Below the pieces are notes generated by a model. That model was not told where the DNA came from. It made no database searches and worked only from the letters and a program-made list of their open reading frames with translations. Shown here one piece after another: positions 31,120 to 35,381 of a stretch of 64,000 nucleotides of DNA (the first letter of the stretch is position 1; the number at the start of each line of letters is the position of its first letter). This DNA is from Isosphaeraceae bacterium EP7 (lineage in GTDB: Bacteria > Planctomycetota > Planctomycetia > Isosphaerales > Isosphaeraceae). The translations under genes and the position numbers were made by a program. The stretch covers positions 1,313,174 through 1,377,173 of the forward strand of contig CP151667.1 of assembly GCA_038400315.1 (NCBI GenBank), read 5' to 3'.

Positions 31120-31305
31120 TCAGCGCATTTCTCGGTAGGTCTCGATACCTTGCCAGAGAACGAAGGCGCCACCCATGATGAAGAGGATGTCCAGGACCAG
31201 GCTGGCCCGATTGAGCAGGCCGAGGCCGGCGTCGAGGGCGAAGATCAGGCAGACGAGCGCGGCGACGATCATCGCGGCGAAGCAAAGGATCTTCTCGGTC
31301 TCCAT
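31120..31305 (-). CDS. small two-helix membrane protein
   Basis: A 61-residue protein, METEKILCFAAMIVAALVCL..., with two hydrophobic segments (ILCFAAMIVAALVCLIFALD and ASLVLDILFIMGGAFVLWQG) and a short basic tail. The codon composition is consistent with coding and the start follows GGCCCC/AGG-type purines weakly (ACTCCTTG on the plus strand is AAGGAGT on the minus strand, giving a ribosome site). It lies alone between the cobA-hemD gene (convergent) and the Hsp20 cluster (same strand). Function unknown. Confidence 0.6.
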   Translation of the reverse strand: METEKILCFAAMIVAALVCLIFALDAGLGLLNRASLVLDILFIMGGAFVLWQGIETYREMR

Positions 31306-31429
31306 GGGGCCTCATACTCCTTGACGACGCCGGGCGGGGGAACGGACTTCACCCGCTAGTTTACCATGTCCCCGGGCCCGGTCCCAACGCACCCGACAAA
31401 TCGTCGGCGTGTTTTTTCAACAGCAGCGA

Positions 31430-31897
31430 TCATCCATGCTGGACGGGGATCGTCCTCGGCTTTGCAGCCTGGCGGCGAGGCATTCGAATATAGAGCACGC
31501 CGTGGCGGGCCTCGGCCTGGACGTTTTCGGAGTCGACTCCTTCACCCAGGGTGATCTGCCTTGAGAATGGGCCGCTGACGCGTTCCCGGTTCCGGGCCTG
31601 GCCGCCCGCGGGGTGAGAGAGCGTCCGCTCACCCTTGATGGTCAGCACGTCGCCGGAGACGGACAGGTCGATCGTGCTGGGGTCGACCCCGGGCAGGTCG
31701 ACGCTGAGCAACCACTCCTGGGGGGTTTCATCAAGGTCAACATTGGGCCGCCATGAATTCCGGTCCACGGCGGTCGAGGCGCGTGGGGTCTGCTGGCCCT
31801 GAGGCTGCCAGTACTCGTCGAACAATCGGTTCAGCTCGGTCTGCAACCCCTGAAAGGGGAACGACAAGTCGCGACGCTGCCAGGTGGGTCGATTCAT
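31430..31897 (-). CDS. Hsp20/alpha-crystallin family small heat-shock protein (third of three)
   Basis: 155 residues. The alpha-crystallin domain runs from RPNVDLDETPQEWLLSVDLPGVDPSTIDLSVSGDVLTIKGERTL to the signature ARHGVLYIRMPRR. A short variable N-terminus (FQGLQTELNRLFDEYW) and a C-terminal PRTIPVQ tail provide oligomerisation elements (IxP-like TIPV). It is an ATP-independent holdase that binds unfolding proteins in the cytoplasm. It is the last gene of the tandem and 68 bp after the second; the three differ enough to be old paralogues. Confidence 0.92.
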   Translation of the reverse strand: MNRPTWQRRDLSFPFQGLQTELNRLFDEYWQPQGQQTPRASTAVDRNSWRPNVDLDETPQEWLLSVDLPGVDPSTIDLSVSGDVLTIKGERTLSHPAGGQARNRERVSGPFSRQITLGEGVDSENVQAEARHGVLYIRMPRRQAAKPRTIPVQHG

Positions 31898-31965
31898 CGG
31901 AGGACGCTCTCCGGGGGATGATTTGAGTGAGTAAGGACGTGGAAGTGTGGACCGAGGGGCGCGAT

Positions 31966-32415
31966 TCAGGACATTTTGATCTCGATCCGACGCGTACGGG
32001 CCCGGTCGGCCTTCGGAAGGAACAGACGCAGGACGCCGTTCTTGAGCTCAGCGGAGATCCGCGACCGGTCGACCTCGTCGCTCAGGATGAACGACCGCTT
32101 GAAGCTGGTCGAGGGGAACTCTTCGTGGAGCGCGACGGCTCCTTCGGGGACGCTGAACGTCACCCTCGCCTCCAGGTTGAGGATGTTGTCCTCAAGCTGG
32201 ATGGTCACCGAGTCGTCGGAGACACCCGGAAGGTCGGCCTCCAGGATGAGCCCATCGGGGCCTTCATGGATGTCGACCTGGGGATTTTGGTGGTCGGACC
32301 CGTGACCGGAACCCCAAGCCGTCGAACGTGCCCGCCGAGGTTCGGTGGTGGGCTCGATCGGCCCGGGCGGGACGCGGAGGACGGAGATTCGGACGGGCTG
32401 AAAGTCGAATTTCAT
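31966..32415 (-). CDS. Hsp20/alpha-crystallin family small heat-shock protein (second of three)
   Basis: 149 residues. The N-terminus is MKFDFQPVRISVLRVPPG; the alpha-crystallin domain includes PQVDIHEGPDGLILEADLPGVSDDSVTIQLEDNILNLEARV and the signature ISAELKNGVLRLFLPKA; the tail ends RRIEIKM, an IEI-type C-terminal anchor. It starts 31 bp after the stop of the first Hsp20 gene, so an operon is nearly certain. The N-terminal arm is unlike those of its neighbours, as expected for paralogues with different clients or for hetero-oligomers. Confidence 0.92.
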   Translation of the reverse strand: MKFDFQPVRISVLRVPPGPIEPTTEPRRARSTAWGSGHGSDHQNPQVDIHEGPDGLILEADLPGVSDDSVTIQLEDNILNLEARVTFSVPEGAVALHEEFPSTSFKRSFILSDEVDRSRISAELKNGVLRLFLPKADRARTRRIEIKMS

Positions 32416-32446
32416 CGCCGGACTCCTGAAGGGGGACCGAGGCCGA

Positions 32447-32953
32447 TCACGCGAGATGGCCGGCCTCGTGAGAGTCTTCGTGGGATTGACCGACCCCTTG
32501 ATTCGGGATGTCCTCGGACGCGGAGGAAATCCGAATCTGCCTCGGCAGGCTCCCCTCCGACTTGGGCAGGGTGATGGTCAAAATCCCCGACGAGAATGCC
32601 GCCGAGACGGCCGATGCTTCGACGCGATCCGGCAGGGTGATCGTCCGGGACCAGCGACCGACCGGACGTTCCTGACGGCGATAGTGCTCTTCGGATGCTC
32701 CGCTCGAACGCTTCCGCTCCCCGCACAAAATCAGGGTGTCGCCGGTGATCGAGAGATCGAGGTCGTCCGAGGCAACTCCCGCGAGCTGGGCGGTCAGCAA
32801 ATAATGCGTTCCCGCGTCATACAAATTGACCGGGGGAAACGGCCTTGGAGAACCCCAGGCGGTCGGAACCTCGAAGGTCTCGATGATCCGACTGACTTCG
32901 CGCTGGATCTCGCGAAAGGGATCCCATCGGCCCTGAGAATTGAGACGGCTCAT
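32447..32953 (-). CDS. Hsp20/alpha-crystallin family small heat-shock protein (first of three)
   Basis: 168 residues. The N-terminus (WDPFREIQREVSRIIETF) is typical of bacterial class A Hsp20; the alpha-crystallin domain includes PVNLYDAGTHYLLTAQLAGVASDDLDLSITGDTLILCGERK and the signature VSAAFSSGILTITLPKSEG; the tail PRQIRISS carries an I-x-I anchor. The ATG at 32953 has GGGAGGG 8 bases upstream; the in-frame TTG before it is less likely. It is the promoter-proximal gene of the three-gene cluster and follows a -24/-12 promoter match by 36 bases of leader. Confidence 0.92.
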   Translation of the reverse strand: MSRLNSQGRWDPFREIQREVSRIIETFEVPTAWGSPRPFPPVNLYDAGTHYLLTAQLAGVASDDLDLSITGDTLILCGERKRSSGASEEHYRRQERPVGRWSRTITLPDRVEASAVSAAFSSGILTITLPKSEGSLPRQIRISSASEDIPNQGVGQSHEDSHEAGHLA

Positions 32954-32999
32954 CAATCAGGCCCTCCCTACGATCATGAAAGCCAGTTGATGAGCACGG

Positions 33000-33016
33000 A
33001 GCAATTCGTGGGCCAA
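33000..33016 (-). promoter_or_regulatory. sigma-54 (-24/-12) promoter of the Hsp20 operon
   Basis: On the minus strand TTGGCCCACGAATTGCT matches the sigma-54 consensus (TTGGCACG-N4-TTGCW) at TTGGC, C and TTGCT, and keeps the required GG-N10-GC spacing. The predicted start near 32989 leaves a 36-base leader with a good ribosome site. No sigma-32-type or CIRCE element was found nearby. Confidence 0.5.
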
Positions 33017-33027
33017 TGGAATTTTCG

Positions 33028-33161
33028 GCCAAATTGGCAGTCGATTCTTACGCCATAAATCTTAAGATTGTTAGATTTTAGAGTCAGATATCGAAGTCGG
33101 AGGAGACAGTTTCCCCCTTTGGGTCGGTGCGGAACGATTCCGTTTTATTGCCAAAATGGCA
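33028..33161. promoter_or_regulatory. three short dyads upstream of the Hsp20 promoter
   Basis: GCCAA-A-TTGGC at 33028-33038, AATCTT-AAGATT at 33058-33069 and TGCCA-AAA-TGGCA at 33149-33161, all perfect inverted repeats in an unusually AT-rich stretch. They lie about 40-170 bp upstream of the predicted transcript start, where activator sites for sigma-54 promoters usually lie. Whether they bind a protein is unknown. Confidence 0.35.
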
Positions 33162-33216
33162 CCCAAGATCGGATGGCGAATATTCCTGTCGAAATGGCAG
33201 ATTCAATCGAGTTGGA

Positions 33217-34701
33217 TTACCAGTGGACCCAGAGATCTTCGATCAGCAGAGATTCATCCTCGGAGGGGAGTATGGAAAGTCGCTCGGTCGTATCGCGGCC
33301 GTCGGCGGGGACCGACTGTTCGTCGACCCAGAGGGCGATTTGTGCACCATCGCGTTTGAGGCGGACATCACGCCAGCTTGGCGACTCTTTAGGTTCGATC
33401 AGATTGGGCACGGGAGGCGGAGTGGAGAGTCGATGGCCGAGGAGCTCGATTTTCTTCAGGTCCTGATCGGACGCGAAAATCCGGGCCGAGAGGCGGAAGT
33501 TGCCGGGTAGGACGAGCGGTAAGTCGTATCGAGGCTGGCCCTGGCCCGGATATCCTGAACCTCCCGGAATTTCGAGCCTGCTGGCTGTGAAGACCTGCAA
33601 CGTCGAGTCGTAGGAACCGTCGAGCGGCATGCGGACGTCTTCGAGCGTGAACCGACTTGCGAGCACGGTCATCAGGCAGGCCACGATGACCAGGGTCCGT
33701 CTCCACCAGCGTGGTGGAACGAGCTCCACCGGGAATGGAGCCCGGATGAGCATCAGGAGCCTGGGGGCCAGGGGCGAAGATTCGGGTTGCTGCGACCCTT
33801 TCGTTCGACTTGCCGGGCTCAGGGTGGTGCTGGCCGGGCCGACGGATTCCCGCGCCGATTGACCGGCGAGAGCCTCCGCGAGTCCCAGGAGTGAAGACCC
33901 ATAGTCGAGCGACCCGCCGAAATCGACCGAAGCCCGGCGATCGGCCAGAAGTTCCTGGTCCAGGCGAAGTTGTGCCGAGATCCACCAGACCTGGGGCAGC
34001 GGGAAGTAGAGTCCCCGCGCCGCGGCGGCCAGCGAGGCGAAGAGCGTGTCGTGTGTCCGGGCGTGGGCCAACTCATGGAGGAGGCTCAGGCGAAGGCGAG
34101 AGACGTCCGCGACCCGATCCATCTCGGAAGGGATCAGGATGGTTGGCCGAAGTATCCCGGCGAGAACTGGCCGACGCAGCCTCGACGAAACGCGCAAATC
34201 GGGCGCGTTCTCAGCCGTTTCGCCCTTGAGCGACCGGTAGACGCGAGACGTTTCGTCTGACGGAGAGTTGGACCGCCGGATGACAAAGCCGAGTGCCCAG
34301 AAGCCGAGGACGAGAGACCCGACGGCGGCGATGGCGGCGATCAGGTATCCCAGGGTCAGACCCCGGGTCAGATTCGAGATCCAGGGGTTGGCGATCCGAC
34401 GCTCGAAGAAGGAATGGACGAGAGTCCGGGTTACGTCGAGGCGAGTATCGGCATGAATGCTGCTCAGGAACGTCGTCGCCAGCCCAGCAGCCGCAGGCTT
34501 TATGGAAAACGAGAGTGATGGGCAGAACGCGGCGAGCGGGGGAAGTGAGAGCGCAGCAACGATCCCCGCCCTGGCGATCGCTCGACGCCTGGAGGGTTGA
34601 CGGCAACAGATCATGGCAACGATGACCATCGACAGCAGAATCGCCGCCGACAGTAAGCTGATGAGAAGAAAAGAACCGAGCCGGTCGACCAACTCCTGCA
34701 T
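33217..34701 (-). CDS. BlaR1-type M56 family metallopeptidase sensor
   Basis: About 494 residues. Membrane segments FLLISLLSAAILLSMVIVAM, IVAALSLPPLAAFCPSL and LIAAIAAVGSLVLGFWAL are followed by the M56 protease domain with H209-E-L-A-H213 (LLHELAHARTHD) and a later membrane segment (RTLVIVACLMTVLASRF). In BlaR1 the cytosolic protease cleaves BlaI after sensing by an extracellular penicillin-binding domain. Here that domain is absent; the C-terminal ~140 residues are beta-rich and end LKRDGAQIALWVDEQSV...IEDLWVHW, reminiscent of a laminin-G/concanavalin-like domain. The ATG at 34701 has GAGG 6 bases upstream. The BlaI-type gene lies just upstream, same strand. Confidence 0.85.
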   Translation of the reverse strand: MQELVDRLGSFLLISLLSAAILLSMVIVAMICCRQPSRRRAIARAGIVAALSLPPLAAFCPSLSFSIKPAAAGLATTFLSSIHADTRLDVTRTLVHSFFERRIANPWISNLTRGLTLGYLIAAIAAVGSLVLGFWALGFVIRRSNSPSDETSRVYRSLKGETAENAPDLRVSSRLRRPVLAGILRPTILIPSEMDRVADVSRLRLSLLHELAHARTHDTLFASLAAAARGLYFPLPQVWWISAQLRLDQELLADRRASVDFGGSLDYGSSLLGLAEALAGQSARESVGPASTTLSPASRTKGSQQPESSPLAPRLLMLIRAPFPVELVPPRWWRRTLVIVACLMTVLASRFTLEDVRMPLDGSYDSTLQVFTASRLEIPGGSGYPGQGQPRYDLPLVLPGNFRLSARIFASDQDLKKIELLGHRLSTPPPVPNLIEPKESPSWRDVRLKRDGAQIALWVDEQSVPADGRDTTERLSILPSEDESLLIEDLWVHW

Positions 34702-34794
34702 TACACGCCTCGCCAAATCCAAGGCAACTCTGATCGATTCGATCAAGGTCACGAGGATTCTACGAGCCGATTGATCGGAGGACAGGCCCGATTT

Positions 34795-35271
34795 TTAGTC
34801 GATCGCAGAATATGCGACGGGTTCGTTCATGACCTGCCGGTCACCCGCGGTGTTGACCTCTGGATTAGGAGCGCTGGTCTCTTGCGCGGCGGTCAGTCTG
34901 GCGCCGTCAATCATGACGCGGAGCCGTTCGAGCTCGGCGGGATCGGGCGACTTGGAGTCGAGCAGGGCAACCATCAGCCTGTCGATGGCGCCGTCGAAGA
35001 CTCGGTCGACGAATCGTCGCGTCAATTCGCCGATCGTCCGATCCGACGTCATCTTAGGGGTGTAGATGAAGGTCCGCCCCTCGACGACGTGACGGACGAG
35101 GCCTTTCTTTTCTTCCATGATGTTCAGGAGGGTCTGAACGGTGCTGTAGGCGACCGGCTCGCTCGTCTTGTTCAGGTCATCCTGAACCTCTCGAACGCTG
35201 GCCCGCTCACGTACCCAGAGGATTTTCAGGATTTCTAACTCGCGGTCGGTGACCATTTGGCCCTTACGCAC
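34795..35271 (-). CDS. BlaI/MecI/CopY family transcriptional repressor
   Basis: 158 residues. The winged helix is intact: TDRELEILKILWVRERASVREVQDDL, then YSTVQTLLNIMEEKKGLVRHVVEGRTFIYTP. The C-terminal half (IGELTRRFVDRVFDGAIDRLMVALLD) is the dimerisation and protease-target part. GTG at 35271 is the likely start, with GGGAGG 6 bases upstream. Together with the M56 gene downstream (93 bp) it forms a signal-controlled repressor pair; its targets are probably its own operon and perhaps neighbours. No consensus BlaI operator (TACTACA-type) was recognised. Confidence 0.9.
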   Translation of the reverse strand: MRKGQMVTDRELEILKILWVRERASVREVQDDLNKTSEPVAYSTVQTLLNIMEEKKGLVRHVVEGRTFIYTPKMTSDRTIGELTRRFVDRVFDGAIDRLMVALLDSKSPDPAELERLRVMIDGARLTAAQETSAPNPEVNTAGDRQVMNEPVAYSAID

Positions 35272-35381
35272 CGGCGGCCTCCCAATCTTGTAAAACGAAA
35301 GAACTCGCACTCGTAACGTATCCGTCCCAGTCATTCGAATCAAGCGAGATCAGGATGCGTTAATGATGCTTCGAAGCAACG

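Follow-up and report, generated by a model that had tools for sequence, protein, structure and literature searches.

A sigma-54-type promoter and paired upstream palindromes before an hsp20 operon point to a probable sigma-54 chaperone regulon in Planctomycetota

Several described systems come close to the locus studied here. The sigma-32 (RpoH) regulon of Pseudomonadota has similar targets, and the HrcA/CIRCE system likewise controls groESL and dnaK. The E. coli small heat-shock gene ibpB reportedly has a sigma-54 promoter; there the promoter serves one gene only, and the bacterium possesses RpoH, whereas here several chaperone operons have common enhancer-like sites. Sigma-54 promoters, whose -24/-12 consensus is TGGCACGN4TTGC, need an activator and are tightly off in its absence; sigma-54 systems need not alter the level of the sigma factor, and the loop by which the activator contacts sigma-54 is usually GAFTGA. 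In NtrB/NtrC-type pairs, as here, a receiver-AAA+-Fis activator is found beside a HisKA-HATPase kinase together with palindromic upstream sites, but in our case the likely targets are chaperones and the kinase of the genome under study has no Pfam sensor domain.

In a recent study based on genome-wide promoter matrices (PMC12316311, PLoS One 2025), predicted sigma-54 promoters were found to be enriched at GroEL, GroES, IbpA, GrpE, DnaJ and DnaK in Planctomycetota, and sigma-54 enrichment at chaperones was predicted in Bacteroidota too. Planctomycete activator genes with such promoters were likened there to ZraR, but the main text of that article contains neither 'UAS' nor 'upstream activat', and we found no activator assigned to the chaperones in it. 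An array study of Rhodopirellula baltica (PMC2754498) reports that heat induces ClpB, GroEL, DnaJ, GrpE, Hsp20 and DnaK, and that rpoH, rpoE and rpoN are present and not heat-regulated, from which 'a significantly different response cascade' was inferred. A Salmonella rpoN mutant complemented by a planctomycete rpoN, cited in PMC3035269, suggests that planctomycete sigma-54 reads canonical promoters. Sigma-54 at planctomycete chaperones has thus already been predicted; the enhancer sites and the kinase-activator pair described below are new as far as we found, since the literature that we searched described neither the palindrome nor a kinase-activator-dnaK group, and what Studholme and Dixon (2004) published about Pirellula and its sigma-54 activators may overlap with our work.

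The window, i.e. the whole stretch of 64,000 nucleotides of Isosphaeraceae bacterium EP7 that was analysed, contains on its minus strand three tandem Hsp20 genes, hsp20A (32447-32953; PF00011 HSP20, E 3e-17), hsp20B (31966-32415; PF00011, E 5.5e-17) and hsp20C (31430-31897; PF00011, E 4.6e-19), separated by 31 and 68 bp. These matches bear out the three tandem paralogues proposed in an earlier note made from the sequence alone. The same note placed a -24/-12 element with GG-N10-GC spacing upstream of hsp20A, and we confirmed it: the sigma-54-type promoter TTGGCCCACGAATTGC lies at 33001-33016 on the minus strand, identified by sequence and conservation, and its core TGGCCCACGAATTGC (33015-33001) has the GG-N10-GC form and two mismatches to the consensus. 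From the promoter geometry, transcription is predicted to start at 32989 (minus strand), 12 bases from the C of the -12 element. This agrees with the leader of 36 bases and strong ribosome site claimed before; the ribosome-binding site GGGAGGG (32962-32968, minus strand) stands 8 bases 5' of the ATG. The claim that no CIRCE element precedes the operon holds as well, the best match having 8 mismatches. Upstream of hsp20A are a gene for an M56 peptidase (33217-34752) and one for a BlaI-type repressor (34795-35343). A fourth Hsp20 gene of this genome (L096, G000:C1:5683807-5684250) has no clear promoter element or site pair and may be under other control.

With up to two mismatches the same -24/-12 pattern occurs 20 times in the whole window against 19.8 expected. 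As this is the frequency of chance, the match gains its weight from its position in front of the operon and, chiefly, from its conservation. An hsp20A homologue was found in 43 of 45 genomes of the family, and the best 30 of these 43 loci were compared (one, L031, with 322 bp of upstream sequence only). Of these 30 loci, 25 had a GG/GC element with at most two mismatches in the 330 bp upstream (dinucleotide shuffles: mean 0.71, maximum 4), and 28 had one with at most three mismatches (shuffles: mean 4.2, maximum 10); in the remaining two upstream regions, L027 and L042, none was found within three mismatches. The conserved element that the earlier note proposed to look for in other Isosphaeraceae is indeed there, with GG and GC kept. 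In such conditions, the interpretation given in that note, that hsp20ABC is led by a sigma-54-type promoter, is supported at the level of sequence comparison.

The arrangement of the genes is conserved too. Among the same best 30 of 43 loci, about 22 have three hsp20 frames and the other 8 have two, counts which are approximate because they were taken from stop-to-stop frames. With three tandem frames in 22 of 30 loci and the promoter kept, this arrangement is the rule in the family and no oddity, so that the earlier description of a three-gene sigma-54 small heat-shock operon as unusual is not supported; the same follows across the phylum from the sigma-54-type elements and common upstream sites at 81 of the 104 chaperone places, among the matches listed, that are described below. 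The M56 gene was observed upstream of hsp20A in 20 of the best 30 of 43 loci, our own genome included. In this genome of 7.2 Mb, RpoN is matched once (PF04552, E 7.6e-62) and the sigma-54 activator domain 19 times, with E of about 4e-43 or better in 12 cases.

Farther upstream than the -24/-12 element we observed palindromes, missing from the earlier note, of the form CTGCCA-N3-TGGCAG, mostly in pairs. In the window, a palindrome search and a strict pair pattern gave putative upstream activator site 1, TGCCATTTCGACA (33187-33199, minus strand), and putative upstream activator site 2, TGCCATTTTGGCA, a perfect 5-3-5 palindrome (33149-33161, minus strand), 38 bp apart from centre to centre. The palindrome search gave a third copy, TGCCAATTTGGCC (33027-33039, minus strand), which adjoins the -24 element on its upstream side. 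In the upstream regions of the best 30 of 43 family loci, 74 TGCCA-N3-TGGCA palindromes with at most two mismatches were counted, some of which overlap the -24 element, compared with 4.5 in shuffled sequences (maximum 10); all 30 loci have at least one and 29 of the 30 at least two. The TGGCA of the -24 element is itself a half-site, and a palindrome overlaps this element in 9 of the 28 loci of the family that have a promoter match. By way of a palindrome beside or over the -24 element, the activator might be able to close its own promoter.

The strict pair pattern matched once in our whole genome, at hsp20ABC, and its reversed control not at all. A looser pattern gave two matches in this genome against four in the reversed control, which is the level of chance, so that the loose form alone is no evidence. 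Within the family the strict pair was found in 26 of 45 genomes, compared with 3 of 45 for the reversed pattern. An Hsp20 frame lies at 17 of the 28 strict-pair loci and an HSP70 frame at 6; no chaperone was found at four (L063, L073, L077 and L083), and L069 was left out of the scan. The palindromes are likely to be the address of the activator that the sigma-54 promoter requires, and we infer that the pairs act as enhancers. The neighbouring BlaI and M56 genes were also considered as owner of the palindrome and were set aside, since it precedes chaperones in many genomes.

We then extended the comparison to 292 genomes of Planctomycetota. The strict pair was found in 94 of them, the reversed pattern in 14 of 292. 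No strict match was found in the other 198; the strict pattern under-detects, since it missed 19 of 45 family genomes although all 30 family loci examined hold palindromes, and the pair is also likely to be truly absent from some lineages. In 104 of 119 places, among the matches listed, the pair stands in the right orientation before groES/groEL, dnaK, clpB or hsp20. The first 60 places were picked by eye, skipping repeats and odd spacings, and 59 more (58 plus L228) were added against that bias; among the matches listed, 59 of 60 are chaperone-linked in the first set and 45 of 59 in the second, which holds 14 of the 15 misses (L180, L329, L333, L343, L344, L346, L353, L354, L356, L357, L361, L362, L383, L384 and L385). 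The 119 places cover two of the many G289 repeats and one G132 repeat, and leave out the second pair in L136 and the matches of G064, G086, G105, G120, G164, G199 and G237. The targets are groEL alone, groES-groEL, dnaK, clpB and hsp20, with representatives confirmed by Pfam.

These pairs have a regular architecture. At 81 of the 104 places, among the matches listed, a GG/GC element with at most two mismatches follows the pair at a distance of up to 260 bp (shuffles: 1.95, maximum 6), and in the first set the pair start and the sigma-54-like element are separated by a median of 149 bp. The centres of the two sites are 39-42 bp apart, about four helix turns, in 75 of the 104 places among the matches listed, with 37-67 bp allowed by the search, and the motif searched for is flanked by C and G at 68%. 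These comparisons give good support to both promoter and regulon. A gene for a single-domain response regulator was observed with groEL or groES-groEL behind the pairs in 31 of the 104 places among the matches listed, e.g. at L135, L138, L140, L144, L150, L164, L182, L184, L187 and L191; in groES-groEL operons it is often the first gene, and it may be a feedback part.

In our own genome, a palindrome and a -24/-12 match are found both before a groES-groEL locus and before a second groEL; behind the latter comes a third groEL, accompanied by its own groES, that lacks such an upstream set. Three palindromes precede dnaK, where no -24/-12 match was found within two mismatches and one was seen by eye at three. 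Two neighbouring HSP70-like genes (L098 and L099, G000:C1:4950360-4953483) have no palindrome within one mismatch nearby.

The textbook regulators of heat shock are nearly absent from the same genomes. One of the 292 genomes passed the HrcA cut-off, by a narrow margin (24.1 versus 22.2 bits) and inside a frame of 1197 residues, and our own genome did not, compared with 7 of 14 control genomes. The RpoH model, which was made for Pseudomonadota, was over its cut-off in 0 of 292 genomes and in 2 of 14 controls; weaker matches occur in every genome, as expected from any sigma-70 relative. This does not bear out the presence of rpoH in R. baltica as stated in PMC2754498. No CIRCE was found before groEL, dnaK or hsp20 of our genome. 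Control of these chaperones by CIRCE, HrcA or RpoH was rejected on the near-absence of HrcA and RpoH and the lack of CIRCE. In G086, a partial RpoH match of 301 bits lies at a contig edge, on what may be a foreign contig.

Which protein would bind the pairs? In G157, the site pair sits between a gene for an NtrC-type activator and dnaK. Among the 12 activators of our genome, the best match to this protein is that encoded at G000:C1:4435058-4436428 (L086:2559-3929), with 46% over 456 residues; the corresponding value for the protein of G075 is 51%. The candidate has receiver, AAA+ and Fis domains (PF00072, PF00158 and PF02954), and a small histidine kinase gene lies next to it (4436457-4437137). 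The gene of a small HisKA-HATPase kinase comes before that of the activator in G157, in G075 and in our genome. No chaperone gene adjoins these two genes in our genome. The DNA-binding region of the activator is strongly conserved in the alignment, and its sigma-54 contact loop reads GAFTNA, where 7 of 10 aligned members have GAFTGA and the others GAFTNA, GAFTDA and GSFTGA.

Kinase and activator genes were found near dnaK in 14 loci, two of them in Planctomycetota MAG records (L258 and L266). In 12 they are directly upstream of dnaK on the same strand; in the other two they are divergent (G075) or 2.65 kb away (G054). The kinase lies within the flank in 19 of the 30 best activator loci and is present in all 20 larger activator regions, two of which (G021 and G197) end at a contig edge; L242 has a weak, differently placed match only. 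In 8 of these 20 regions dnaK is nearby, a count that includes G296, picked for its site pair, and G054 with its distance of 2.65 kb. Conversely, 14 of 21 planctomycete kinase loci (L251-L254, L256, L257, L259-L265 and L269) have no activator of the candidate's type in the sequence covered, some because the contig ends. The kinase is apparently elsewhere in several lineages, which fits such loci. Outside Planctomycetota, the kinase scan found many NtrB-like kinases. Two of the kinase loci that lack such an activator, L259 and L260, are those of Roseiconus nitratireducens and Rhodopirellula maiorica, whose related kinase has none within 6 kb. A contig filed as Candidatus Kuenenia stuttgartiensis (L248) carries a kinase-activator pair that in the tree groups with our own family, and it is possibly misbinned.

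In a maximum-likelihood tree, the 14 dnaK-linked activators, the candidate of our genome and 40 other planctomycete rows share one side of a branch with a support of 100/100, and 11 paralogues of our genome and 4 proteins of other phyla fall on the other side. The tree has a midpoint root, the paralogues have long branches, and the 40 extra rows group as they do partly by selection, most of them having been picked for their high similarity to our activator. Over the 292 genomes, activator matches are stronger in genomes with the pair (median exponent 148) than in those lacking it (136.5; p 1.5e-7, a value which ignores relatedness). Eight genomes have the pair and a weak activator match, with an exponent below 125 (G067, G078, G079, G112, G171, G183, G289 and G309). 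An activator near the response regulator-groESL locus of G132 (L191) was dropped, as it is not close to our candidate; the main activator group is represented in G132 by a dnaK-linked gene at another locus. Gene neighbourhood and co-occurrence give a strong but indirect assignment, by which the protein of G000:C1:4435058-4436428 is most likely the activator of hsp20ABC, phosphorylated by the neighbouring kinase.

Taken together, these comparisons make it probable that hsp20ABC is a member of a sigma-54 chaperone regulon present in much of Planctomycetota and run by a dedicated two-component enhancer circuit. In this circuit the kinase would phosphorylate the NtrC-type activator, which would bind the paired CTGCCA-N3-TGGCAG palindromes and open the sigma-54 promoters of hsp20, dnaK, groES/groEL and clpB. 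Judging from these targets, the signal would be heat or misfolded protein. In a plausible model the chaperones would restrain the kinase or the activator, and the receiver protein of the groESL operon might serve as a phosphate drain.

The circuit could exist as described and respond to another signal, such as growth phase, nitrogen, oxidative stress or envelope stress. The kinase of our genome begins almost at HisKA and has no Pfam domain besides HisKA and HATPase, so that its sequence names no signal; starting there, it may read an internal one, and its orthologues have longer frames. However, most of the pairs precede core chaperones (104 of 119 places, among the matches listed) and the R. 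baltica counterparts are reported as heat-induced in PMC2754498, so we regard a signal other than heat or misfolded protein as unlikely.

A little less likely still is that the sigma-54 promoters are real and that a repressor or activator distinct from the one proposed occupies the palindromes, the promoter being opened by another of the dozen enhancer-binding proteins of the genome. Such a reading would suit the nature of the link between activator and palindrome, which consists of gene neighbourhood and co-occurrence only, the eight genomes in which pairs go with weak activator matches only, and the position of the third palindrome, adjoining the -24 element here and overlapping it in 9 of 28 family loci, where a repressor site might lie. 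Against a separate palindrome-binding protein, the activators of the 14 dnaK neighbourhoods fall into one group, and paired sites far upstream with near-fixed spacing are typical of enhancers. Finally, it is very improbable that the -24/-12 element matches by chance and that transcription of the operon starts at an ordinary promoter or runs on from the M56 peptidase gene upstream: such matches by themselves are about as frequent in the window as chance predicts, but the conservation of this one exceeds that of shuffles in the family and in the phylum, and no sigma-70-type site was found in 31250-33300.

Returning to the dedicated sigma-54 circuit, a broader version of it seems possible to us, with the odds leaning against it as a whole: the main heat-shock response of much of the phylum would depend on sigma-54, with a sensorless kinase and an NtrC-type activator in place of RpoH and HrcA; free chaperones would inhibit the kinase or the activator until misfolded protein titrates them, and the receiver encoded ahead of groES-groEL would drain phosphate as negative feedback. 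As sigma-54 promoters are tightly off unless an activator is at hand, a heat-shock regulon with ATP-driven enhancer activation would be an unusual design. For the control of chaperones in Planctomycetota in the absence of RpoH and HrcA, a motif, a promoter class, a kinase and an activator can now be named, so that the question is reduced to simple deletions and binding tests. The results suggest that planctomycetes may switch on the rescue of their proteins by a route other than those of the textbooks.
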